The position numbers and the translations under genes were made by a program. A stretch of 64,000 bases of DNA. Source: Diospyros lotus (Eukaryota > Streptophyta > Magnoliopsida > Ericales > Ebenaceae). The DNA is taken from the NCBI RefSeq assembly GCF_014633365.1, contig NC_068351.1, positions 13,460,907-13,524,906 of the forward strand. Direction: 5' to 3'. Below, piece after piece: positions 8,767 to 24,190 of the stretch. Numbering within the stretch: position 1 is the first letter of the stretch; each line of letters begins with the position of its first letter. The notes below the pieces were generated by a model that was not told where the DNA came from, did not search any database, and saw only the letters and a program-made list of their open reading frames with translations.

Positions 8767-8771
8767 CTATG

Positions 8772-9077
8772 GCTACACCTATGAGTAGTTCTCAAAGCCT
8801 AGATAAAGATGAACTAGGAAAAGGTGTCGATAACAAGCTTTATAGAAGTATGATTGGTTCTTTGCTTTATTTAACAGCTAGTAAACCTGATATTATGTTT
8901 AGTGTGTGCTTATGTGCTAGGTTCCAATCTAATCTCAAAGAATCTCACTTGAAAGCAGTTAAAAGAATCTTGAGATACCTAAAAGGAACTGCAAATCTAG
9001 AACTATTTTATGCAAAATCAAATATTTTTGATCTAATAGCATACACTGATGCAGATTATGATGGATGTAAAATAGAT
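8772..9077 (+). pseudogene. Copia RT/RNase H (element 2), continuation and truncation
   Basis: This continues the protein interrupted at 5894 with the connection domain and RNase H start (SMIGSLLYLTASKPDIMF, then [10 protein letters not shown]). At about 9077 the sequence leaves the RNase H wording (the other copy continues with RKSTSG) and switches to the gag leader of another copy. The missing C-terminus includes the remaining RNase H catalytic residues. Confidence 0.85.
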
Positions 9078-9448
9078 CTTATCAGATGGCACATTTTGCC
9101 TCCTCATCTCAATCCGAGGGTCTAAGCACCACTTATCCCCCATATTTTGATGAAACTAACTATAACTACTGGAAGACAAGAATGCAAATTTATTTGATGC
9201 AGGACTCAAGCTTAATGCAAGCTGTATATCAAGCTAGCTGATATGGAGAAAATTGAGACTTAGACAGTGAAAGAAAGAAGAAACATGGAGATAAATGCAA
9301 AAGCTATGAATACACTTATCTGTGCACTAAGCTCAGAGGAATTCAACAGAGCGTCAACGTGCAAGATAGGTAAGGAAATTTGGGACAAATTAAAGGTAAC
9401 ACATGAAGGAATCAATCAGGTAAAAGAAACAAAAATCAATCTTCTTGT
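9078..9448 (+). pseudogene. Copia gag N-terminus (element 1), broken
   Basis: Homologous to the gag at 1956 onward. An ATG at 9086 starts MAHFASSSQSEGLSTT. An 8-bp deletion near 9220 relative to the other copy shifts the frame. The sequence runs up to the target site cttgt (9444-9448), where the gypsy element is inserted, and resumes at 23232 with the next gag bases. Confidence 0.85.
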
Positions 9449-9769
9449 TGATTAGTGGTTAATTTTATAAAAATTTTGTTATAATTATACCCTTCTTTTG
9501 ATCTTAAAAATAGTTTAAATTAGATATTAATATATATTTTATGGTTATATGCAAGTTTAAATTGAAAAATGAATGAAATGAAATTTTAAAGTAAAATTTA
9601 ATAATAATAATAATAATATATAAAATTATATATAATACATATATATCATTATATGCATTCATGTAATATATATAATATAATATAATATATATATATATGT
9701 GCCATGTGTAATACATATATATAATATATAATTTATTAATAATATTAAATTATTTTTATTTTTTTTAGG

Positions 9770-9925
9770 CATGAAGAATTAAAGCCCATGAAGAATTCAA
9801 ATCCATGAAGAAATCAAGCCCATGAAGAAATCAAGCCCATGAAAAATTAAAGTCCATGAAGAAATCAAATCCATGAAGAAATCAAGTCCATGAAGAATTC
9901 AAGCCCATGAAGAATTAAGACCCAA
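9770..9925 (+). repeat. Short tandem repeats in LTR, catgaagaa(a/t)tcaagcc type
   Basis: About nine imperfect units of 17-18 bp (catgaagaaatcaagcc and variants) follow one another. The same array is at about 21494-21649 in the 3' LTR. Confidence 0.85.
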
Positions 9926-10054
9926 TTTGAGCAACCCATGGAGAATATTATTTGGAGAAGGCCCAAGGATTATTTTTAATCCTAATGAAGATTAAAAACC
10001 AATTTATAGAAATCTATTTTTATTTTGTATGTGAGAGCTTTATTAGGTGTGTTT

Positions 10055-10200
10055 TTTAGCTAAAATCCATTTAACTATTAGGTGGATATTATAGCTAAAA
10101 TCCATTTAACTTTATGAATGCTTTATTAGGTATGTATTTTAGCTAAAATCCATTTAATATTAGGTGTGTATTATAGCTAAAATCCATTTAACTTTAAGTG
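10055..10200 (+). repeat. Four copies of tagctaaaatccattta in LTR
   Basis: The unit tagctaaaatccattta occurs four times, separated by attaggtgtgtatt-like spacers. It is repeated identically in the 3' LTR at about 21779-21924. Confidence 0.85.
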
Positions 10201-10275
10201 TGTGAGTGCCCATTAGATATAATTATGTCTAGTTGAATAATTGAAATTGTGTGGTTTGTATTGCATCTTGTGGCC

Positions 10276-10283
10276 TATAAATA
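10276..10283 (+). promoter_or_regulatory. TATA box of gypsy LTR
   Basis: TATAAATA in the context tggcctataaatagatcac. The equivalent in the 3' LTR is at 22000-22007. It is the best TATA candidate in the LTR and would drive genomic RNA synthesis starting about 30 bp downstream. Confidence 0.6.
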
Positions 10284-10467
10284 GATCACTTGATTGCATT
10301 TGTAAGTGTGATTATTATTCTTGAATCAAAGTTTAGTTATTTCCTTAGAATTCTCTCTTTGAGAATTGCTTTTGTTCTCTCTCATTTTCTTTAGTATTTT
10401 CTCTTGTGATCTTACTTTCTTCCTTTCTTCTTTTAAATTCTTATGTCATTTATTATTACTTTATTAT

Positions 10468-10630
10468 TCACCGCCTAAATGGACGGTTAGTTTATGCCTT
10501 TAAATTCTTGCAATTTTAATTCTTGTCATTTAATTGTTCACCGCCTAAATGGACGGTTAGTTTATGCCTTTAAATTCTTGCAATTTTAATTCTTGTATTT
10601 TAATTATCTACCGCCTAAATGGCCGGTTAG
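10468..10630 (+). repeat. Three tandem units around ACCGCCTAAATGG in the LTR leader
   Basis: Units of about 70 bp repeat, each with the core ACCGCCTAAATGGACGGT (third copy GGCCGGT). The core is partly self-complementary (ACCG...CGGT), so transcripts could form short hairpins. The position downstream of the TATA box places the units in R/U5 RNA. The 3' LTR has the same set at about 22192-22354. Confidence 0.8.
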
Positions 10631-11507
10631 TTTCTTCTATTTTAATTCCTGTCATTTAAATTCTGTTATTTAAATTATGTCATTTAAATTGTTGTCAATT
10701 AATTTAATAGAGATGAGTAGCTAAATCTAATCTTGGGTTAAGGCAAGGACAGTGTCTAACGCCAATGATTCCCAAAGAAAGCTACGCTTTAAATGAGTAA
10801 CATTGGTTTAAACTTCAATATGAGTGTGTTTTGATTATTGAAAAATCACTAGGTTTGGATTGGAGCGTAAGCCTAACTTAGAGCTTTCATGTCACGCATG
10901 AGAGTTACTAGAACTGGAAACGCTATCATACCCAAACCCGGATGATTAATTTAGTTGTTTTGTGTATTAATTGTAATTAAATTTATGGTAGTTTTTTAAA
11001 TTAGAATCCCACATATCATGTATGGGGATTGCTTAAACTAAAGCTATCATTATCTTTAATTGCATTTAATAACAAATCCTCATATATGAAATTAAATTAA
11101 TGTTGCTAATCTTTTATGCTAATATTTGGGAATCAACGGGTTGGCACTGAAATTGTCTTAACTCAAGTACTTTCCAATTTCATATTCTCACGTTTAGTAT
11201 TTATTTCAACTTCTGTCTTGCTTTATTTTCTAGTATTTGTTATCTAAAAAAATTATAAAAAATCATGTTATCAATCCATCTAAATGCGTGTGCGTGTGTG
11301 TGACATTCTTTTTTTTCTTTTGCCATAAATAAATCTCTCAGTGGACGACCTGGACTTATCCAGAAAGTATAAATTTAAATTTGAACTACAACTGCACTCG
11401 TACACTGACGAGTATAAACCTCTCGCCTAAATAAATAAATAAAATATAAAATTTTTATTGTGTTTTGTTTTGTGTTTTAATTGCAGGGTGAGAGTGCAGT
11501 CAAATTT

Positions 11508-11525
11508 TGGCGCCGTTGCCGGGGA
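11508..11525 (+). promoter_or_regulatory. Primer binding site, tRNA-Asp type
   Basis: TGGCGCCGTTGCCGGGGA, five bases after the 5' LTR end, is the exact complement of the 3' end of plant tRNA-Asp(GTC). This primer is characteristic of Athila/Tat-group gypsy elements. Confidence 0.95.
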
Positions 11526-11630: not shown

Positions 11631-14600
11631 ATGATACTTAGGTCAGGTAAAACTGTAGAAAATCAGTCACTCATGTCTCAACATGATGAGAACATGCCAC
11701 TTCCACAGAACATGTCTGCACGTGGTAGTGACCACGGTGACCCTGATCCCATTGATCAGGAGATGATCAGACCCCTTAGGGAGTATCTTCATCCTCCTAG
11801 GCAGACAACCCCCTCATGCATTATTCTTCCCATCAACCATCATAGGTTTAACTTCAAACCTGGCACAATCCAATTGTTACCAACTTTTCATGGCATGGAT
11901 TCTGAAAATCCATATACTCATATGAAAGAATTTGAGGAAGTATGTAGCACTTGCATGGACCATACAGCAAATGAGGATGTCATAAGATTAAAACTCTTTC
12001 CATTCTCACTGAAAGATAAGGCAAAAATATGGTTAAGCACTCTCCCACCTAGATCTATAGGAACTTGGAGAGAAATGCAAACAACTTTCTTAAAAAAATA
12101 CTTCCCTGCCAACAGAACTGCTACTCTTCAAAGACAAATCATGAACTTTGCCTGTAAACCAAATGAGAATTTTGCTCAAGCGTGGGAAAGGTTTAAAGAC
12201 CTTCTTCACACTTGTCCGCACCATGCTTTTGAGCAATGGAGAGTGGTTAGTTTCTTTCATGATTCACTCACTCCCCAATTGAAAATGCTAGTTTCTACAA
12301 TGTGCAATGGAGAATTCTATGAGAAGACTCCAGAAGAAGCTTTCCACTTCTTTGACACATTGGCTGAGAATACAAGGAACTGGGAAGTTGGTCCAACATC
12401 TGCTCTTGATTCAAAAGAAAATCCACAACCTAGAGGGAGATACCAACTGAGTGAGAGTGACGATTTAAATGCAAGATTAACTGCTTTAACAAAGAAAGTT
12501 GAAAACATGCAACCCAAAAAGGTGCAATCTGTTAATCAAGTGGAAGTAAAGTGTGCTGTGTGTGATGCAACAGATCATTCAACTGAAGAATGTCCTACCC
12601 TACCTGCTTTTAAGGAGGTATTGTATGGGCAGACTAATAACAATCATTCACACAACTTTGAGGGGAGACAAAATCAAAATCAGAGTGGAGCCTATTATGG
12701 GAATAATCAGAACTACAATTCATACCATCCCAATAATAGAAATCACCCCAATTTTTCTTGGAGAAATGATTCTGGAAATCATTCTCAACCTCCCTTCCCT
12801 ACACAACAACACACCTTTCAACAAAATCAAGGTTCTTCATCCAATACTTACCAACCTCCTCATAGGAGATCTTTGGAAGATACCTTGCACCAGTTCATCC
12901 AAAGTCAAACAGGTATCAACAATCAGGTTGCTCAGCTTGTCAAAAATCAAGACCAAACAAATAGAGCCATAGAAGACATTAGGAGCCAGTTGACCAAGAT
13001 AACACAAACATTGAGTGTGAGAGAACCCGGAAGGTTTCCATCCCAAACTAATCCTAACCCAATTAGGCAAACCAACCAGGTAGAAGCTTCAAATAGTGAA
13101 ACCAACACTCATGAACAAGTGCAAGCAGTGACTGCCCTAAGAAGTGGAAGAATAATTGAGAAACCAACTGATCCTAGGATAAACCAACATGTTGATGAAG
13201 AAAAAGAACCAAAAGATCATGAATCCACCGTGGAAAAAAATGAGAAAAATGAGAAAAATGAAAAAAATGAAAAAAATGAAAAACAAAAAGAAGATGAGAA
13301 AGAAATTCAATACAGGCCCAAACCACCTTTTCCACAAAGGTTGAATCATTTGAAAAAAGAGCAACAAAATGCAGATATATATGAAGTGTTTAAGCAAGTG
13401 AGAATCAACATCCCGCTGTTGGATGCAATCAAACAAACACCTTCATATGCAAAGTTTTTGAAAGATCTGTGCACTGTCAAAAGGAAAACAAATGTGCATG
13501 AAAAGGCATTCTTGACTGAACAAGTCAGCGCCATTCTCCAATTGAAAACTCCTCCCAAATACAAAGATCCAGGCTGTCCAACCATTACATGCATCATAGG
13601 AAGTCAAAAGGTTGATCGGGCACTCTTGGATTTAGGAGCTAGTGTCAATTTGTTGCCATATAGTGTGTATCAACAGTTGGGATTAGGTGAGCTTAAACCC
13701 ACTAGAGTGACCCTTCAGCTGGCTGATCGATCAGTCAAAGTTCCACGAGGAATTGTGGAGGATGTTCTGGTACAAATCGATAAGTTCTACTTTCCAGTGG
13801 ACTTCATTGTTTTGGACACCCAGCCGCATCAGGGGCCTCAACCTCCTGTGCCAGTCATCTTAGGTCGACCATTCCTTGCCACATCAAATGCCATCATCAA
13901 CTGTAGGAATGGTGTGTTAAAGCTATCTTTTGGGAACATGACTGTAGAAATGAATATCTTTAGGGTAGCCAAACATCAGGACACTGAGAGTGAAGTGGAG
14001 GAGGTAGACTTGATCCAAACACTGACCAATGACTGTTTTGAAGAGTTCATGAGAAGACCCAAAGAAGGAAATCAAGATCTTGAAGAAATAAAAGAAGTGG
14101 AAGTCATAAGCAAAGAAAGTGAGAAGCCTACATGGATGCCTGGTTTAGAGCCATTAAGAAACTTGGACAGTAAGCTCATGGCTCCTGATAGCCATCAGTC
14201 CACGCCTGAGAGAAAACCATTGCCCAGTGATTTGAAGTATGTCTTTCTAGGAGAAGGGGAAGCATTCCCAGTGGTGATCTCTTCAAGTTTGACACCTCAG
14301 CAAGAGCAACAATTGATAGAAGTTCTAAAAGCACACAGGAAGTCATTAGGATGGACCATTTCAGATTTGCAAGGTATTAGCCCTTTGATATGTACTCATA
14401 AGATATTCTTGGAAGAAGGAGCAAAACCAGTTAGGCAAATGCAAAGGAGATTAAATCCCAACATGAAAGAAGTTGTCAGAAAAGAAGTGCTTAAGCTATT
14501 GGATGCTGAAATAATTTACCCAATCTCTGATTCTAAGTGGGTAAGTCCAACACAGGTAGTACCCAAAAAGTCTGGAGTCACTGTTGTAAAAAATGAGAAC

Positions 14601-17129
14601 AATGAACTGATTCCCACGCGCATCCAGACAGGATGGCGTATGTGCATTGATTATAGAAAGCTCAATTCTGTGACAAGGAAAGATCATTTTCCTTTGCCTT
14701 TCTTGGATCAAGTTCTGGAGAGAATAGCAGGCCAAGCCTACTATTGTTTCTTAGATGGCTACTCAGGGTACAATCAGATAGAAATTGCACTAGAAGATCA
14801 AGAGAAGACAACTTTCACATGTCCATTTGGGACATTTGCATACAGGCGCATGCCATTTGGGTTATGCAATGCTCCAGCCACCTTTCAAAGGTGTATGATG
14901 AGCATTTTCAGTGAAATGGTTGAGCAAATTGTTGAAGTGTTTATGGATGACTTTTCTGTTTATGGAAGTAACTTTGAGGCCTGTTTGGAGAATCTGAAAA
15001 AGGTTTTAGCAAGATGTGAGGAAACAAATCTGATACTCAATTGGGAAAAATGTCACTTCATGGTGAAACAGGGCATAGTCTTGGGGCACATCGTTTCATC
15101 TAGGGGGATGGAGGTAGACAGATCAAAAATTGAAACAATTCAAAAACTCCCCATCCCTAGGAATGTGAAAGACATCAGAAGTTTTTTGGGACATGCAGGG
15201 TTTTATAGGAGATTCATTGCTTCCTTTAGCACTATAACAAGACCCTTGTGCCATTTGTTGTCTCAAGATGTTCCGTTTGAATGGAGTCCTGCCTGTCAAA
15301 ATGCTTTTGATAAATTGAAAGATGCACTCATTTCAGCACCTATCATTCAGTCCCCTGATTGGTCCCTCCCGTTTGAACTTATGTGCGATGCTAGTGATTA
15401 TGCGGTAGGAGCTGTGTTAGGGCAGAGGAAGGATAAGAAACCTCATGTGATATATTATGCTAGCAAAACTCTTAATGAGGCACAAAATAATTACACCACT
15501 ACAGAGAAAGAGTTACTAGCAGTTGTCTTTGCCCTGGACAAGTTTCGATCTTACCTCGTAGGGTCACTAGTGATCATTTTTACTGATCACGCTGCTCTGA
15601 AGTATTTGTTCACAAAGCAAGATGCAAAACCCCGTCTGCTCCGATGGATCTTACTCCTGCAAGAGTTCAACATTGAAATCAGAGACAAGAAGGGAGTAGA
15701 AAATGTGGTGGCTGACCATTTGTCAAGGATTCCAAGTCAAGATCTCACACAATTTGATGAACCAATTCATGACAATTTCCCTGATGAGCAACTGTTTAAA
15801 GTAAATGTTATTCGTGCATCATCTGTTGTCCCTTGGTATGCCGACATTGCGAACTACCTGGCAACTGGTCTGATCCCAGACCATTGGAGTAAGCAAGATA
15901 GGCATAAATTCTTCAGAAAAGTCAGAACCTTCTTTTGGGATGAGCCCTACCTCTTCAAGTATTGTCCTGACCAAATCATCCGTAGATGCATACCCGATCA
16001 TGAGCAACAAAGTGTCATCAATTTCAGTCATACTCTTGCATGTGGAGGCCATTTTTCTGTCAAGAAAACAGTTGCAAAAATTTTTCAGAGTGGATTTTAT
16101 TGGCCGACACTGTTCAAGGATGTGTACAAGTTCTGTTCAAATTGCGATCGATGTCAAAGGTTAGGAAGTCTGTCAAGGAGAAACATGATGCCATTACATC
16201 CGATCCAAGTGTTAGAAGTTTTTGACTGTTGGGGTATGGATTTTATGGGCCCATTTGTCAATTCATTTGGTCATGAATATATCTTACTTGCTGTTGACTA
16301 TGTGTCCAAATGGGTAGAAGCAATCCCGGCCAGAACAAATGACCATAGGACTGTCGTGAAATTTTTGAAAGAAAACATATTCAGTCGATTTGGGATGCCA
16401 CGAGCAATCATCAGTGATGGGGGTTCCCATTTTTGTAATAAAGTTGTGGCAGGATTAATGAAGAAATATGGTGTACTGCATAAGGTTGCAACACCATACC
16501 ATCCCCAAACCAATGGTCAAGCCGAGCTAGCCAATAGGGAGATTAAGCGCATATTGGAAAAGACTGTTGGTGCTAATCGTAAGGATTGGTCCTTAAGACT
16601 AGTAGACGCTCTTTGGGCGTACAGGACAGCTTACAAAACAATTTTGGGAATGTCTCCCTATAGGCTAGTATACGGTAAATCTTGTCATCTGCCGGTGGAA
16701 ATTGAGCATAAAGCATATTGGGCAATTCATAAGATCAACAAGAGTCTAACTGAAGCAGGCTTATCCAGGAAGCTCCAATTGAATGAACTTGAGGAAATTC
16801 GGAATGAAGCATTTGAAAATGCAAGATTGGCCAAGGTTCGCATGAAAGAGTTACATGATCGGCACATCATTCGAAAAAGCTTTCAGGTAGGGCAATGGGT
16901 ACTCTTGTATGATTCTCGATTGCATCTATTCCCAGGAAAATTGAAGTCTCGATGGGTCGGCCCCTTTGTAATCAAGTCCATCTCAGGATATGGGGCATTT
17001 GAGATAGAAAATCTGGAGTCAGGACAGCTTCTAACAGTCAATGGTCATAGGTTGAAACCATACCAGGGTAGTGTTGAGGAGAATGAAGGAGTTGTGGATT
17101 TAGATGATCCATCATCATCTGATGAGTAG
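11631..17129 (+). CDS. Gag-Pol polyprotein of Athila-type gypsy retrotransposon
   Basis: A single open frame of 1832 codons with no stops. In order it shows a retrotransposon gag domain (residues about 100-250), a CCHC knuckle (C308, C311, H316, C321), a low-complexity linker with a KNE repeat (about 540-560), an aspartic protease with DLGAS at 667-671 (the Athila form, instead of DTG/DSG), RT with FMDD at about 1104-1107, and RNase H with its first Asp at about 1253. The integrase follows with an HHCC zinc-binding part starting about H1467 and a DDE core (D about 1537, ISDGGSHF at about 1592, the Glu in [10 protein letters not shown]) and a C-terminal GQWVLLYD...[10 protein letters not shown] module. 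It would package and copy element RNA and integrate it. Integrase after RNase H gives the gypsy order. The chosen ATG lies 105 bp after the primer site. The intact frame fits a young, possibly autonomous element. Confidence 0.95.
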
Positions 17130-17697
17130 GGAAAGTTTCCTATCGTCTGGGAATCTGACGTTAAAAGACCACCTTTCCATTTAGGTTAAATGGATGTTTA
17201 TAGATCTGAAAAAAAAATTAAAAAAAAATAATAAAAAAAATAAATAAAAAAAGGAAAAAAATAAAATAAAATAAAATAATAAAGAATTATATATATAAGT
17301 TGTTCATTTTCTGCATTACTTAATTAACTTTGATTCAAAGAGTGTTTCTCTGTGTGCAGTCTAAATAAAATTTTTTTGCATACAAGTTCATGCATTGAAG
17401 ACCACCAGGTATGCCTATCTTCTATCCTTTTATTGTCGATTGAGGACAATGCGCAATTTAAGTTGGGGGGTAAGGTGTACTTGATTTTATTGGTGTTTGA
17501 AACTGATCCATTGTGCAAAAAATAAAAAAAATAAAAAAAAATAAAAAAAATTAATAATAATAATAAGAATAAGAATAAAAAAAATTAAAAAAAAAAACAA
17601 TAAAATAATAATATAAAAAAAAAAAAAATTTGAATTGAGAGACAGAATTGACGCTGGTGGTAGCTATCTTTTCTTGGGCAGTGCAATCACACTGCCC
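17130..17697 (+). other. Non-coding spacer after gag-pol with A-rich tracts and first polypurine-like motif
   Basis: It holds long A/AAT-rich runs (17205-17290, 17515-17630) and, at 17460-17471, AAGTTGGGGGGT preceded by tgaggacaatgcgcaattt, a wording usual just upstream of the 3' polypurine tract in Athila elements. No ORF of note. Confidence 0.7.
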
Positions 17698-17832
17698 TAT
17701 AAAGGATAAGGCACACTGCCAAATGTTGAAAAATGAGGCACCAAGCGTTGAAAAAGAGACGCCAAGCCTGACCCTGTAATTATGGCATGCCTCGAGCCGA
17801 GTGTAAAATAGTGATGGTCATTGCTCTATAAG
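17698..17832 (+). promoter_or_regulatory. Possible internal promoter or leader for the accessory genes
   Basis: Two TATA-like words lie upstream of the 181-aa ORF: TATAAA at 17698-17703 and TATAAG at 17827-17832. A pyrimidine-rich stretch (cttctctcctttgtgttattctcc) and then cgatcag/gtactc follow, the last resembling a splice donor. Whether the downstream genes are made by an internal promoter or by splicing from the LTR transcript cannot be decided from sequence. Confidence 0.3.
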
Positions 17833-17975
17833 AGACTCCATATCTGTATAAGGCAAGCCACCCTTCTTGAGCTCAGTCTTCTCTCCTTTGTGTTATTCTC
17901 CGATCAGGTACTCTCATCCCTTTTGTAAAGTTTATAGTTCTTTACTTTCTTCTTAGTATAGTTAAAAAAAAAAAA

Positions 17976-18521
17976 ATGGATCTTTATCTCTCAAAAATTC
18001 ACAAGTACTATCCATCTCTCCCGCAGAATGATTTGAAAAAAATTTATGTTGCTAGGTGTGAAAGACTTAGGTTGTTGATGCTTAATAACATCCCTGAAGA
18101 TATTCGTTGGCTGATCGAAGCAAAAGTTCGATTAGCTGGTGAAACTTCACCTAGTTTTAAGCATTTTCCAGGCTTAGGGAAGAGTAGTTTTGCGAAGAAA
18201 AGAAGAGCGAAAAGAGTGAATGGTTGTTACAAATGTGCTCGATGGACCTGTAACACACGATGCAAATCTGTGGGGTTTACGTCCATAAATCGAGAAGATA
18301 AAATTAGTTTCATAAAGGATAGACTGAGTAAGGAGTCTCTGGATGATATCCGATTGACTCTTGAGACGCATCCGTGTGGAATAGTGCAAAGAGAACTTCT
18401 TGCTTTATGGACCCAGTTCAGAAGTGACCACCAACGCTATAGTCTTGGGAATCTGACTAAAAACGACCATGTTTGCCAATCTATAAGAAAATTGGATGGG
18501 AAGCTTATCCCCACTTCATAG
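17976..18521 (+). CDS. Basic Cys-cluster accessory protein of unknown function, 181 aa
   Basis: An intact ORF inside the gypsy element, between gag-pol and the LOG gene, starting at an ATG after an A-run. Visible features are an amphipathic N-terminal half (residues 1-60), a strongly basic run KKRRAKR (74-80) that could be a nuclear localisation signal or RNA-binding arm, directly followed by a Cys cluster C84-x2-C87-x4-C92-x3-C96 that could bind zinc, then a charged helical C-terminus. I do not recognise a retrotransposon family for it. The layout, a basic arm immediately before a compact Cys cluster, recalls the small cysteine-rich nucleic-acid-binding proteins of carlaviruses and allexiviruses, some of which suppress RNA silencing. 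That link is inference from layout only. It takes the place of the env-like gene of other Athila elements. Confidence 0.8.
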   Translation: MDLYLSKIHKYYPSLPQNDLKKIYVARCERLRLLMLNNIPEDIRWLIEAKVRLAGETSPSFKHFPGLGKSSFAKKRRAKRVNGCYKCARWTCNTRCKSVGFTSINREDKISFIKDRLSKESLDDIRLTLETHPCGIVQRELLALWTQFRSDHQRYSLGNLTKNDHVCQSIRKLDGKLIPTS

Positions 18522-18663
18522 AAAGTGTTTAAGCCGTTTCTGGACGTAAAACCAGAGGAAGATGTGAGCCACAATCACAACTACTTATATATACGCAAGA
18601 TTTTTGTTTGTATTTATTTCTTGTTGAATTGTTGTATAGCTACTTTTGATCTCCAAACTTCTT

Positions 18664-18668
18664 TTCAG
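18664..18668 (+). promoter_or_regulatory. Possible splice acceptor upstream of LOG ORF
   Basis: A pyrimidine-rich tract ending ttcttttcag|g lies 20 bp before the LOG ATG and matches a plant 3' splice site. It may allow the LOG message to be made by splicing from an upstream donor. Confidence 0.35.
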
Positions 18669-18688
18669 GACATACAAAAGAAACAAAC

Positions 18689-19348
18689 ATGGAAGGGCAG
18701 TTCGTTCGTCAAATTAAAACCATATGTGTACTTTGTGGCTCTCAACTTGGGAGTGATATTTGTTACGCACTTGCAGCGAACGAACTTGGTAAAAAATTAG
18801 GAGAGAAAAAAATTAATTTGGTATATGGAGGGGGAAGTCGTGGATTGAATGGTTATGTTTCACAAGCTGTACATCTTGGAAATTCATCTGTGGTAGGTAT
18901 AATGCCAATCCCTTTAGCTGAACCACATATTTCCGGGATTACACGCGGTCAACTTATAGAAACGACTTCTATGTCTGAGCGCATGGCTTGTAAGATTTAT
19001 CAGTCAGATGCCTTCATTGCTTTACCAGGAGGTTTTGGAACACTTGAAGAAATCTTTTGTATAATCTCCTGGGCCAAGAGTAATCTCCATACCAAACCCA
19101 TTGGACTTTTAAATGTTAACCATTTTTTCGATGGGTTACTCTCTTTTCTTGATCAGGCTGTGGACCAACAGTTCATTTCTCGTTCAGCAAGAAAGATTCT
19201 CATTTCTGCATCCACCATTGATAAGCTGTTAGAGAAATTACATGCTTATGTTCCACAGTACGATCCTCATGAGCCTCGGATAGACTGGTCTAAGGCAATT
19301 AGTAACAAGCGCCAAAGGGGTCCGATTAATTTAGATTTATCACTGTGA
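18689..19348 (+). CDS. LOG-like: LOG-type cytokinin riboside 5'-monophosphate phosphoribohydrolase inside a retrotransposon
   Basis: This intact, intronless ORF of 219 aa matches the LONELY GUY family over its full usual length. It has the Rossmann-fold start (ICVLCGSQLGS, about 12-22), the nucleotide-binding YGGGSRGLNG (about 52-61), MSERMACKI in the place of the family's MxxRKxxM, the active-site signature LPGGFGTLEE (about 119-128), KPIGLLNV and the C-terminal AYVPQYDP. LOG enzymes are cytosolic or nuclear and release active cytokinin bases from N6-prenyl-adenosine monophosphates in one step. Plant LOG genes normally have several introns, so their absence suggests capture from spliced mRNA. 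The Arg of the motif is kept, but the following Lys is Met. The last residues (SNKRQRG) are basic. It lies 167 bp after the 181-aa ORF and well inside the LTRs. Plant origin is likely but not proven. Confidence 0.92.
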   Translation: MEGQFVRQIKTICVLCGSQLGSDICYALAANELGKKLGEKKINLVYGGGSRGLNGYVSQAVHLGNSSVVGIMPIPLAEPHISGITRGQLIETTSMSERMACKIYQSDAFIALPGGFGTLEEIFCIISWAKSNLHTKPIGLLNVNHFFDGLLSFLDQAVDQQFISRSARKILISASTIDKLLEKLHAYVPQYDPHEPRIDWSKAISNKRQRGPINLDLSL

Positions 19349-19355
19349 GAAATGC

Positions 19356-19550
19356 TCTTTAATAAGATGGCTGAGTAAGGAGTACTTTTTGTACTCTTGA
19401 GACGCATCTAGTTATTGTACAACTCGCAGAATTTTTCTTGGTTGTGTTCTTTAAAAAAAAAAAAACAAAACAAAACTGTGGAATGTTGTTAGCAAAGTCT
19501 TTGATAAGATGGCTGAGTAAGGAGTACTTTTTGTACTCTTGAGACGCATT
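19356..19550 (+). repeat. Direct repeat pair with hairpin gagtac-ttttt-gtactc
   Basis: A unit of about 46 bp (ataagatggctgagtaagg... to gacgcat) occurs at 19362-19407 and again at 19504-19549, nearly identical, offset by 142 bp. Each contains GAGTAC TTTTT GTACTC, able to form a 6-bp hairpin. Both lie in the 3' untranslated part after the LOG stop codon. Confidence 0.8.
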
Positions 19551-19714
19551 TTGCTTATCTTATGACTTGCATGAAATTTTTATTTTGGTGTGAAAATATA
19601 AATATATATATATGGTGTGCTCATTTGTTGTTTAAGTTTTAGCAGTTCACAGCAAATCTATGGACTTGTGGAGTTACAGGTATTCCTAACAACCCTGATT
19701 TATTACTGCAATTC

Positions 19715-19726
19715 AAGTTGGGGGGT
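19715..19726 (+). promoter_or_regulatory. Second internal polypurine-like motif AAGTTGGGGGGT
   Basis: Identical over 12 bp to the motif next to the 3' LTR (21160-21171) and to 17460-17471. It is followed by gtaaggt, similar to taaggt after the first copy. Confidence 0.6.
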
Positions 19727-21159
19727 GTAAGGTCTAGTCATGAATCATCTGATTTATATTTAACTGTGAGTTTGTAATTACTAGTTTGTAGTCTTGTGGG
19801 AATTGATTGTCTTTATCTACTCTTATAAAAAAAAAAAAAAATTATTATGTGTTTTAAATAATGCTATTCCTAAAGCTTTAAAGTTATGCACTGATAGCCG
19901 GTTAAGTTTACAATACGAAACATGAATGCATTGATTTCTCATTTGAAAACGTTTATGCATGAGAATAAGTAATTTACATTCATCGAGGATTCAAAATTTA
20001 AAAATTGATTATCGGTCATAAAGTCAAAGGTAACAGTAATTAGCTGATTAATACACTGTATGATCTCTCAACAGAAGTGGAGACAATTACCCAAGTGAGT
20101 GTTTGAGCCTAATAATCGTTAATTCTGAGTGAAATAACACTTACTCTAAATATGTTTTATTGTTTATCTTATCTTTTCAATGGCTTCAAAACATCAATTT
20201 GCTTTGAATGTCTAGTATGATAGCGGATAAGTTTGACTGGTTTCAAACTCTGAATTAGATGACTGAGTATCATCGTTTTGTAGAAGCATGATAGAGGGAT
20301 CAATTTCTTTCATTTTGAGCTTATTAAACCTTTTTCTTTCTTTAAATTAACCTCCTTTGCTATCCCATTTGAGCCATTTGTAGTATAATTTCTTTCGTTA
20401 CCCTCGTTTGGTGTGATTTTGAGAATTAGTCTGTTTATCTATTTTCATATTTAAAGAAAAAAAAAAGAAAAAAAAAAAGAAAAAAGAAAAAAAGAAGAAA
20501 AAAAAAAAAGGTGAAAAAAAAAAGGGGAAAATTCTCTTAACTATTCAGCATAACTGTTTCAAAAGAAATGGTAAAAAAAAAAAAAAAAAAAAAATCCCGA
20601 CACACCCTTTGCACACTCTACCTTTTCTTTGACAACCCGTATTAACCTTATAGCCCCATTACAACCCAGTCTGGTCCCTTTTGATGCTATAAATCATGTG
20701 ATCTCAGAATTCGAGTTTGGAGTAGGGAATCATGTTTAAATTCAGAAGTTACTATCTAGAGCATTATTCCAATCATGAAGCTATGTCAATTTCCTTATTC
20801 TTTCATGAAAATACGTTCCTTGTATTTGGGATGGCACCGAGTTTTGAACTTGTTCTGCATTTACTCTTATAACGGTGCACCCCCTTGTGTGTACACCTGA
20901 GGAATCCTTTTTATTGGAGAGAAAATCCATAGTGAGATTTGAAGTCAAAACTTCGAGGGAGTAAGTCTGTGTGTTGGTTATCCTAATTTCCATTCCTGAG
21001 ATTGTATGACCTTTAACCAAAAATCTGATTTAGAATGCTAAATTATTTATTTAATTTTATGCATTTCGGTTTCGAATTTGAAATTTTTACATTCATACAG
21101 TTATTGTGAATAAAGTTTGGCAGGTGTATAATCTGATTGCTAAGGGACTAGCAATGTTT
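19727..21159 (+). other. Non-coding 3' region of gypsy element
   Basis: About 1.4 kb without a credible ORF. It includes a long A/G-only tract (about 20454-20530) and an A-run (about 20575-20595), as found in 3' regions of Athila elements. Confidence 0.6.
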
Positions 21160-21171
21160 AAGTTGGGGGGT
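21160..21171 (+). promoter_or_regulatory. Polypurine tract of gypsy element
   Basis: AAGTTGGGGGGT, immediately before the TG of the 3' LTR (21173), is the expected primer for plus-strand DNA synthesis. Confidence 0.85.
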
Positions 21172-21172
21172 A

Positions 21173-23226
21173 TGATTAGTGGTTAATTTTATAAAAATTT
21201 TGTTATAATTATACCCTTCTTTTGATCTTAAAAATAGTTTAAATTAGATATTAATATATATTTTATGGTTATATGCAAGTTTAAATTGAAAAATGAATGA
21301 AATGAAATTTTAAAGTAAAATTTAATAATAATAATAATAATATATAAAATTATATATAATACATATATATCATTATATGCATTCATGTAATATATATAAT
21401 ATAATATAATATATATATATATGTGCCATGTGTAATACATATATATAATATATAATTTATTAATAATATTAAATTATTTTTATTTTTTTTAGGCATGAAG
21501 AATTAAAGCCCATGAAGAATTCAAATCCATGAAGAAATCAAGCCCATGAAGAAATCAAGCCCATGAAAAATTAAAGTCCATGAAGAAATCAAATCCATGA
21601 AGAAATCAAGTCCATGAAGAATTCAAGCCCATGAAGAATTAAGACCCAATTTGAGCAACCCATGGAGAATATTATTTGGAGAAGGCCCAAGGATTATTTT
21701 TAATCCTAATGAAGATTAAAAACCAATTTATAGAAATCTATTTTTATTTTGTATGTGAGAGCTTTATTAGGTGTGTTTTTTAGCTAAAATCCATTTAACT
21801 ATTAGGTGGATATTATAGCTAAAATCCATTTAACTTTATGAATGCTTTATTAGGTATGTATTTTAGCTAAAATCCATTTAATATTAGGTGTGTATTATAG
21901 CTAAAATCCATTTAACTTTAAGTGTGTGAGTGCCCATTAGATATAATTATGTCTAGTTGAATAATTGAAATTGTGTGGTTTGTATTGCATCTTGTGGCCT
22001 ATAAATAGATCACTTGATTGCATTTGTAAGTGTGATTATTATTCTTGAATCAAAGTTTAGTTATTTCCTTAGAATTCTCTCTTTGAGAATTGCTTTTGTT
22101 CTCTCTCATTTTCTTTAGTATTTTCTCTTGTGATCTTACTTTCTTCCTTTCTTCTTTTAAATTCTTATGTCATTTATTATTACTTTATTATTCACCGCCT
22201 AAATGGACGGTTAGTTTATGCCTTTAAATTCTTGCAATTTTAATTCTTGTCATTTAATTGTTCACCGCCTAAATGGACGGTTAGTTTATGCCTTTAAATT
22301 CTTGCAATTTTAATTCTTGTATTTTAATTATCTACCGCCTAAATGGCCGGTTAGTTTCTTCTATTTTAATTCCTGTCATTTAAATTCTGTTATTTAAATT
22401 ATGTCATTTAAATTGTTGTCAATTAATTTAATAGAGATGAGTAGCTAAATCTAATCTTGGGTTAAGGCAAGGACAGTGTCTAACGCCAATGATTCCCAAA
22501 GAAAGCTACGCTTTAAATGAGTAACATTGGTTTAAACTTCAATATGAGTGTGTTTTGATTATTGAAAAATCACTAGGTTTGGATTGGAGCGTAAGCCTAA
22601 CTTAGAGCTTTCATGTCACGCATGAGAGTTACTAGAACTGGAAACGCTATCATACCCAAACCCGGATGATTAATTTAGTTGTTTTGTGTATTAATTGTAA
22701 TTAAATTTATGGTAGTTTTTTAAATTAGAATCCCGCATATCATGTATGGGGATTGCTTAAACTAAAGCTATCATTATCTTTAATTGCATTTAATAACAAA
22801 TCCTCATATATGAAATTAAATTAATGTTGCTAATCTTTTATGCTAATATTTGGGAATCAACGGGTTGGCACTGAAATTGTCTTAACTCAAGTACTTTCCA
22901 ATTTCATATTCTCACGTTTAGTATTTATTTCAACTTCTGTCTTGCTTTATTTTCTAGTATTTGTTATCTAAAAAAATTATAAAAAATCATGTTATCAATC
23001 CATCTAAATGCGTGTGCGTGTGTGTGACATTCTTTTTTTTCTTTTGCCATAAATAAATCTCTCAGTGGACGACCTGGACTTATCCAGAAAGTATAAATTT
23101 AAATTTGAACTACAACTGCACTCGTACACTGACGAGTATAAACCTCTCGCCTAAATAAATAAATAAAATATAAAAATTTTATTGTGTTTTGTTTTGTGTT
23201 TTAATTGCAGGGTGAGAGTGCAGTCA
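21173..23226 (+). repeat. 3' LTR of gypsy element, 2054 bp
   Basis: It starts TGATTAGTGG, ends GTGCAGTCA and is followed by the target duplication cttgt (23227-23231). It is almost identical to 9449-11502. TATA box equivalent at 22000-22007. Confidence 0.95.
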
Positions 23227-23231
23227 CTTGT

Positions 23232-24190
23232 CCATGATTATGAGTTATTTTCTATGAAGAAAGATGAGTCTATAAAAGATATGTACACTAGATTCAATGA
23301 TATTGTTACTACCTTAGAAGCTTTAGGTAAGACATTTACAAATGGAGAAAGAGTTAGAAAAATTCTAAGAAGTTTACCCAGATCGTGGGAATCCAAGGTC
23401 ACTGCCATAACAGAGGCCAAAGACTTAGATACACTTCCATTTGACAACTTTCTAGGTTCATTAATGACACATGAAATTATGGTGAAAAGAAATGAAGTTG
23501 ATGACTCCAAGAAAAACAAAAATGTAGCATTTAAAATTGAGGATGAAGATAAAGACTCACAAAGTGAAGATGATGATTTTGCTTTGTTAGCCAGAAAATT
23601 TAGGAAATTTATGAAGAGAGGTAGATTTTATCAAAGGAGAAACTTTCGGAAAGAGAAAGAACAAAAGAAAACTAACCTATCTAATGAGCTTCGATGTTTT
23701 GAATGTAAGAAGGTAAGTCACATTAGAAGTAATTGCCCTCAATTGAAAAAGAAGGATCGCAAGGAAAGAAAGATGAAGAAGAAGGCTTTAGCTGCATGAG
23801 GAGAAGATGAGCTCTCATCAAGTGATGAATCCCAAGAAGATGAAGTTGCCAACATTTGCTTTATGGCAAATATTAAAGATGAGGTAACTTCTCAGCATCC
23901 TACTTCAATTTCTGATTTTACATTTGAAGAACTACACGATGCATTCAATGATCTGCTAAGTGAATGTGAGCATATGAACAAGAAAAACATTGATTTAAAA
24001 AGGGAATCAAGTTCCCTAAAAAATAAGGTAAATGAGCTGAAAAATAAAATAGAAATGTTAGAAGATGAAAGAAACAGTCTAAGTACTGAAAAAGAAAATC
24101 TCTTGAAAGAAAACAAAGACATGAAATAATCCTTAGAAAAATTAGTTGAAGGGAAAAAAAAACTAGAAATGATTCTTGAAGCTCAAAGAA
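23232..24190 (+). pseudogene. Copia gag (element 1), continuation
   Basis: It resumes gag after the gypsy insertion (HDYELFSMKKDESIKDMYTR). It has the gag core, a CCHC knuckle (CFECKKVSHIRSNC, about 23698-23740; the usual Gly before His is Ser here), an acidic segment and a Lys/Glu coiled coil (about 23960-24130). A TGA at about 23797 and a TAA at about 24127 interrupt it. The frame is lost near 24190, as in the other copy. Confidence 0.85.

Follow-up and report, generated by a model that had tools for sequence, protein, structure and literature searches.

A LOG-type gene and a virus-type NABP gene lie side by side in a Ty3/gypsy retrotransposon family of Diospyros lotus

Extra genes beyond pol persist in many plant retrotransposons, and the reason is an open question. 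It is raised here by a 64,000-nucleotide stretch of the Diospyros lotus genome (contig NC_068351.1, positions 13,460,907 to 13,524,906; hereafter the window), in which a Ty3/gypsy element carries an intact LOG open reading frame (ORF) of 219 codons on the plus strand (18689-19348), between gag-pol and its 3' long terminal repeat (LTR). The initial annotation of the window gave the position and length of this ORF exactly, and was also right about the youth of its carrier, whose LTRs differ at 2 of 2054 positions and which is flanked by a perfect 5-bp target-site duplication. It proposed that the element had captured a host LOG mRNA and keeps it because it raises cytokinin in host cells. Two features were overlooked in that annotation: an adjoining virus-type gene, called NABP here after its Pfam family, and a C-terminal LxLxL tail on the LOG protein. 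Our study leads us to propose, tentatively and as a reading that could well be wrong, that NABP and LOG, lying between pol and the 3' LTR, form a two-gene cassette whose products would act jointly in the host nucleus, for escape from silencing and for a permissive, dividing state of the cell.

The gene pair is a regular part of this element family. Our LOG search of the 630-Mb genome returned 1129 candidates, and the best 150, which were scored, cover residues 1-219 (1-218 in one case), 143 of them without a stop codon. The corresponding NABP search gave 994 candidates, with no stop in 145 of the best 150, and a cell LOG7 (P0287) used as the query retrieved a partly different best 150, of which 149 lack stops and the most similar is 51% identical. 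The LOG7 gene itself is absent from the best 150 matches of that query, as would be expected if it is interrupted by introns. The possibility that the ORF is a pseudogene in other copies is rejected by these top-scoring matches. Forty copies were taken from the LOG list, 20 as loci of about 10 kb and 20 of 1.9 kb; NABP adjoins LOG in all 40, and no stop is present in LOG in 36 of them and in NABP in 37. Among the 20 larger loci, gag-pol is present in 17 and gives a full-length match without stops in seven. It is important to note that genome copies were sampled through LOG or NABP matches, so that the sample consists of elements with the cassette. The search for further copies that the initial annotation had called for found the ORF in many other elements, with NABP alongside, and its view that LOG belongs to the element is borne out by these copies, mostly open among those scored, and by the amino-acid constraint described below. 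An endogenised virus fragment, or a host gene caught by chance inside one insertion, might be invoked in place of an element gene set, since NABP falls in Pfam families named after viruses. We regard this as hardly credible, and as refuted for this genome by the 40 copies and the loci lacking pol: the pair occurs in every copy at different places, gag-pol is also present in most larger loci, the pairs without pol lie between LTR stretches, and three Orobanche gene models (P0045, P0079 and P0113) hold NABP and LOG domains within one protein.

Six loci lacking pol were examined, namely L015, L027 and L028, together with L049, L050 and L051, which were added for their spacing or score group. All six keep LTR stretches and NABP and LOG sequence, with the pair between the LTR stretches. 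Four of them have an open NABP and five an open LOG; the two frames are intact together in L027, L050 and L051, and each of the other three has one of them broken. A gag-derived ORF of 409-419 codons is present in L028 (4485-5723), L027, L050 and L051, where it shares just short DNA similarity with gag; it is split in L015 and has 324 codons in L049. Within this group the primer-site stretch was read in L028 only. Elements that lost pol have thus kept NABP and LOG, if not in every case in intact form. Some LOG copies lie about 7.3 kb apart, on C11 (16479278, 16486540 and 16493989) and on C10 (29875577 and 29882878), and because L049 has a single LTR between the first two copies of the C11 set, this spacing suggests tandem arrays with shared LTRs.

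The NABP ORF matches the Pfam family Viral_NABP (E 3.6e-7; 30.8 bits, curated cut-off 23) and falls just under the cut-off of Carla_C4 (20.5 against 20.9). A protein search identified 501 relatives among 557 candidates, of which the best 120 were examined; those named among the matches listed come from Populus, Orobanche, Xanthoceras, Rhamnella and Acer. In an alignment of the window protein with 31 of these 120 relatives, PF05515 is matched by 28 of the 32 members and PF01623 by 27 (E 0.01), and there is little or no variation in the zinc-finger-like cysteines and across much of the basic run. Pattern searches of the 120 listed homologues found a CxxC-x4/5-C-x3-C motif in 101 and a basic run ahead of the CxxC in 106. 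Viral contigs scanned with the NABP alignment gave 19 pattern matches, none of them confirmed, and an Rfam search of 17130-21300 gave four matches up to E 5, all far under the gathering score. The frame continuing past the NABP stop (18522-18584) encodes KVFKPFLDVKPEEDVSHNHNY, and a nearly identical peptide is present in P0050 and P0099, in frame and without the stop. Readthrough into the stretch is possible, but within D. lotus it is as variable as NABP (0.130 against 0.121 variable sites per base), and the stop is TAG in all 40 copies.

The LOG ORF belongs to PF03641 (E 3.8e-33). Outside D. lotus we treat LOGs as presumably element-type on the basis of their clade, their many-member clusters, a report on Citrus and Populus (PMC9289625), and NABP and LOG matches on equal-sized contigs (8723, 4511 and 2128). 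In a first tree of 43 rows, all 31 LOGs so classed (the window protein and 30 of 118 listed relatives, hand-chosen for spread from Populus, Reevesia, Diplodiscus, Pterospermum, Xanthoceras, Rehmannia and other, unnamed sources) fall on one side of a branch with support 99/97, opposite 10 cell LOGs and one unassigned row, P0229. A second tree, built without the pocket and tail columns and counting P0229 as a cell LOG, keeps 32 of 32 element-type LOGs together (97/90). In both trees P0182, P0218 and P0219 diverge close to the base of the element-type clade. Because the sampled rosid and asterid element-type LOGs form one clade apart from the cell LOGs, we consider a single, ancient capture from a plant LOG mRNA likely. 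The single clade is compatible both with one capture that predates the rosid-asterid split and with later horizontal spread. An intronless capture of host mRNA, as originally suggested, fits these data, and the element LOGs are indeed related to plant LOGs, but they form a separate, old clade; a recent single capture is rejected, because the clade spans rosids and asterids. Homologues of both genes at about 50-70% identity occur across several eudicot orders and retain ORF length, zinc-finger and catalytic residues.

Special attention was given to the nucleotide-binding pocket. It has been reported that the AMP site of CgLOG includes Met96, Arg99, Lys100, Glu121 and Glu122, that Glu125 and Trp129 lie in its inferred prenyl site, and that alanine at AMP-site residues, S19A excepted, nearly abolished AMP hydrolysis (PMC4979012). 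In Cg1261, alanine at Arg155, Lys156, Thr175 or Glu178 abolished activity (PMC5379747). The window LOG has the PGGxGTxxE motif, the catalytic Arg and Glu and the LOG fold of a type-I phosphoribohydrolase, and when aligned to these two enzymes it retains R98, T118, E120, E121 and W128. It lacks the equivalents of CgLOG Lys100 and Glu125: Met99 replaces the pocket Lys and Cys124 the pocket Glu, and Ser96 replaces a His. The wider comparison used residues read at the LPGG anchor (111 of 118 element-type and 118 of 120 cell LOGs; rows without the anchor were omitted), in two top-120 lists drawn up by resemblance, one to the window LOG and the other to a single cell LOG7, and the shared traits are therefore partly built in. 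R98 is kept in 107 of the 111 element-type LOGs, E121 in 108, T118 in 109 and the Trp in 110; K99 is found in nine and E124 in the same nine, which are eight Xanthoceras models and P0218. All 118 cell LOGs keep all of these residues. The loss of K99 and that of E124 require one change each on the tree built without those columns. Since the replacements are confined to few residues (Ile, Met or Leu at position 99 in 100 of 102 rows, and Gln or His at position 124 in 90 of 102), the base pocket looks like one that was redesigned rather than one that decayed, a dead enzyme being the alternative.

These changes bear on the function first proposed for the gene, in which a normal cytokinin-riboside-monophosphate phosphoribohydrolase would keep cells dividing and help the element into the germ line. 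We find such simple cytokinin activation doubtful, because the pocket Lys and Glu are replaced. Both replacements are common to 102 of 111 element-type LOGs, and a change of the Lys to alanine abolished the activity of Cg1261 (PMC5379747), while alanine at the AMP-site residues, this Lys included, almost abolished AMP hydrolysis by CgLOG (PMC4979012). In our judgement plain cytokinin activation is unlikely, and the statement that the gene raises cytokinin is not supported by these data.

The second difference from cell LOGs lies at the C-terminus. The window LOG ends in INLDLSL, which contains the LxLxL motif of EAR proteins. The motif stands at the very end of the protein in 88 of 111 element-type LOGs and in none of 120 cell LOGs, the latter being LOG7-like proteins; in 86 of those 88, at least three Lys or Arg residues occur within the 12 residues ahead of it (for example, KKRKLDLTLRL). 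The tail needs two changes on the tree, and P0127, P0182 and P0219 are without it. TOPLESS is recruited by the EAR motif, of which LxLxL is one form (PMC7446885, PMC6479872), and an oomycete effector, HaRxL21, binds TOPLESS via a C-terminal LxLxL (PMC7446885). A new conserved tail, combined with the loss of a Lys required by the bacterial enzymes, would also suit a pseudo-enzyme scaffold that hydrolyses nothing and whose LOG fold presents the tail, binds nucleotides or poisons host LOG dimers. A scaffold has no need of the catalytic Arg and Glu, which nearly all element-type LOGs keep, and we consider this explanation unlikely.

Constraint within the genome is clearer for LOG than for NABP. 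For LOG, dN/dS is 0.36 over 41 copies, a value biased because the copies were picked by LOG score, a choice that favours low dN; in this set missense changes are fewer than under random placement (35 against 46.2 expected, P 0.001). The ratio is 0.25 (dS 0.075) over seven sequences, a set to which the NABP and LOG7 searches contributed six further copies, all without a stop, and 0.28 (dS 0.024, dN 0.007) between 13 autonomous and six pol-less copies. In the 41 copies NABP has a ratio of 0.43, and gag-pol has 0.12 over 18 rows. The comparison of copies by dN/dS that the initial annotation had suggested thus agrees with an element gene under constraint. It is conceivable that both genes are mere passengers, an old transduction without benefit whose frames are open through the youth of the copies: the window copy is recent, within-genome constraint on NABP is weak, there is no clear depletion of nonsense changes, and half of the pol-less loci have one broken ORF. 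Three facts make this improbable: homologues in several eudicot orders keep length and key residues despite their divergence, the LOG ratio lies at 0.25-0.36, and pol-less elements retain both genes.

We return to the joint action of the two products as our preferred reading, in which the pair, judging from the sequences, probably reprograms the host cell rather than simply making more cytokinin. The sequence of events would be as follows. After capture, LOG has been remodelled: its fold and the phosphoribose-side catalytic residues are preserved, its adenine/prenyl pocket is altered, and it has acquired a basic tail with LxLxL at the end. The substrate of the protein may be a nucleotide different from the normal cytokinin precursor, and the tail may recruit or sequester TOPLESS-type corepressors. 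It has been reported that some viral NABP relatives suppress RNA silencing, and p12 of chrysanthemum virus B has been described as a hyperplasia-causing transcription factor (PMC12172455); by analogy, the element NABP may suppress RNA silencing, activate transcription, or both. The LOG-derived protein is predicted to join NABP in the nucleus by means of its basic tail and EAR-like end. Element RNA, a target of silencing, would then escape it, and cells kept dividing and undifferentiated, which lead to the germ line, would be a gain for a retrotransposon. What the sequences show directly is the anatomy of the element, its copy number, the pairing of the genes, the residue changes, the tail and, within the sample, the single clade; the nuclear site, the new substrate, TOPLESS binding, silencing suppression and the benefit to the element are what we infer here. 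A broader version, which we think improbable enough to be offered with caution, is that of an ancient eudicot LTR lineage, older than the rosid-asterid split, with a two-protein kit for host takeover (a silencing suppressor or transcription factor of plant-virus type and a captured LOG that has become a TOPLESS-hijacking phosphoribohydrolase of the nucleus, acting on a new nucleotide substrate), whose pol-less offshoots would carry the kit and borrow pol.

Several results weigh against this reading, in addition to the choice of copies by LOG score and of lists by similarity described above. First, the structural model of NABP is poor (pLDDT 60.9), and none of its 45 viral fold matches up to E 10 reaches significance (best E 0.16); several of them are flexivirus NABPs or suppressors. 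Second, selection is uneven, for in the 41 copies nonsense changes are not significantly fewer in LOG (3 against 4.0 expected, P 0.40) or in NABP (2 against 5.1, P 0.07), the reduction of missense changes in NABP does not reach significance (44 against 46.8, P 0.25), and 13 close autonomous copies give a LOG ratio of 0.56, on as few as 1.3 changes per pair. Third, the catalytic motif is conserved well enough to make ordinary LOG activity conceivable. Fourth, LxLxL does occur in the last 40 residues of one of the 120 cell LOGs, and the motif alone has been found insufficient for TOPLESS binding, ten other LxLxL effectors having been tested in yeast (PMC7446885).

The features of the element are collected in Table 1. 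Paired LTRs, a short target duplication and gag followed by protease, reverse transcriptase (RT), RNase H and integrase identify it as Ty3/gypsy, and at the substitution rates of plants two mismatches in 2054 place its insertion within roughly the last hundred thousand years. The Athila lineage (non-chromovirus, non-Tat) has been defined by the lack of a chromodomain and of a second RNase H (PMC6317226). Because the Pfam scan found neither of these in gag-pol, we assign the element to Athila by exclusion, on Pfam domains. The polypurine-tract copies AAGTTGGGGGG at 17460, 19715 and 21160 bracket the cassette and the next 1.4 kb, and three copies were seen in 20 of 23 loci, which suggests either that recombination at the 3' end brought the cassette in or that the extra tracts are in use. 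A hairpin repeat occurs twice 3' of LOG, with at least two matches in 22 of 23 loci (L049 being two elements); it is similar to the NABP codons LSKES...LETH, and its fold z-scores are weak (-1.6, -1.5 and -0.7). It may act in cis as an RNA signal, or it may be what is left of a duplication. At 17907 the sequence CAG/GTACTC, which resembles a splice donor, is matched exactly in 22 of 23 loci; at 18668 the acceptor-like TTTTCAG/GA is present in all 23. Splicing between these candidate sites would remove NABP and leave LOG as the first ORF, but copies so nearly identical would have the sites in common in any case. Outside the element, the ORFs at 8769-9125 and 23254-23799 resemble, by eye, copia RNase H/RT and gag pieces, and on that judgement the element seems to be nested inside another retroelement.

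Table 1. Features of the element in the window (coordinates count from the first base of the window)
Feature	Position	Strand	Basis or remarks
Target-site duplication CTTGT, left copy	9444..9448	.	sequence; right copy 23227-23231
5' LTR, 2054 bp	9449..11502	+	99.9% identity with 3' LTR; 2 mismatches, no gaps
Primer-binding-site-like stretch	11508..11525	+	sequence; presumably tRNA-Asp type
gag-pol, single ORF, 1832 aa (gag, protease, RT, RNase H, integrase)	11631..17129	+	Pfam
First polypurine-tract-like copy, AAGTTGGGGGG	17460..17470	+	
NABP ORF, 181 aa	17976..18521	+	Pfam Viral_NABP; basic stretch and CxxC-x4-C-x3-C zinc-finger-like motif
LOG ORF, 219 aa	18689..19348	+	R98, E121 kept; M99, C124 at pocket; tail INLDLSL
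Hairpin repeat 1, 3' of LOG	19356..19412	+	resembles NABP codons at 18324-18371
Hairpin repeat 2, 3' of LOG	19498..19552	+	
Second polypurine-tract-like copy	19715..19725	+	
Polypurine tract adjoining 3' LTR	21160..21170	+	
3' LTR, 2054 bp	21173..23226	+	2 mismatches with 5' LTR

These results have consequences for annotation and for experiment. P0121, a cluster of eight member sequences filed as the host gene LOGL10 [Diospyros lotus], differs from the window LOG at 1 of 219 residues, and we warn that an element ORF has been filed there as a host gene. The relatives of both cassette genes have assayable activities (silencing suppression, transcription, phosphoribohydrolysis and TOPLESS binding), so the question of why extra genes are kept after pol becomes testable. 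If LOG has been neofunctionalised, it also offers a natural experiment on LOG substrate choice.

The presence of LOG in such elements is not itself new. Steinbauerova et al. (2011) reportedly found two Athila-like elements with similarity to LOGL4. LOG/YgdH domains in Citrus and Populus LTR retrotransposons are in print, with a citation of Steinbauerova 2011 (PMC9289625), and the suggestion of the initial annotation that this kind of element was unreported, or new because of its LOG, is accordingly rejected. Searches on LOG with retrotransposons led to that known report. Our search for NABP with retrotransposons, which covered few subscription journals and was judged by its result lists, found no fitting report; nor did the papers examined mention the single clade, the switch in the pocket, the tail or the retention of both genes by pol-less elements, no dedicated search for these having been made.

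The closest known systems are those Citrus and Populus elements, plant Ty3/gypsy elements with a LOG-type domain as here, and the Populus LOGs share a clade with the window LOG; NABP, the pocket changes, the tail, the pol-less derivatives and the common origin go unmentioned in section 12 of that report (PMC9289625). Gypsy elements of Phalaenopsis likewise carry a host-type enzyme as an additional ORF, a functional AlkB m6A demethylase (PMC9289625), which is a different enzyme and one whose activity has been demonstrated in vitro. Plant LOG7, LOG3 and LOG8 share the fold, PGGxGTxxE and the catalytic Arg and Glu with the window LOG; in contrast to them, the element LOG has lost the pocket Lys and Glu, is intronless, forms a separate clade and has gained a tail (LOG7-like proteins being those compared). 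EAR effectors of the HaRxL21 type have a C-terminal LxLxL, as the element LOG does, but are unrelated to it, and for the element LOG TOPLESS binding is a prediction. Finally, the flexivirus NABPs and CRPs, including those of carlaviruses (PF05515, PF01623), combine a basic stretch with a zinc-finger-like Cys cluster, as the window NABP does, whereas the latter is encoded by a retrotransposon and is longer, with 181 residues against about 100-140 in the non-fragment viral NABPs and suppressors compared.
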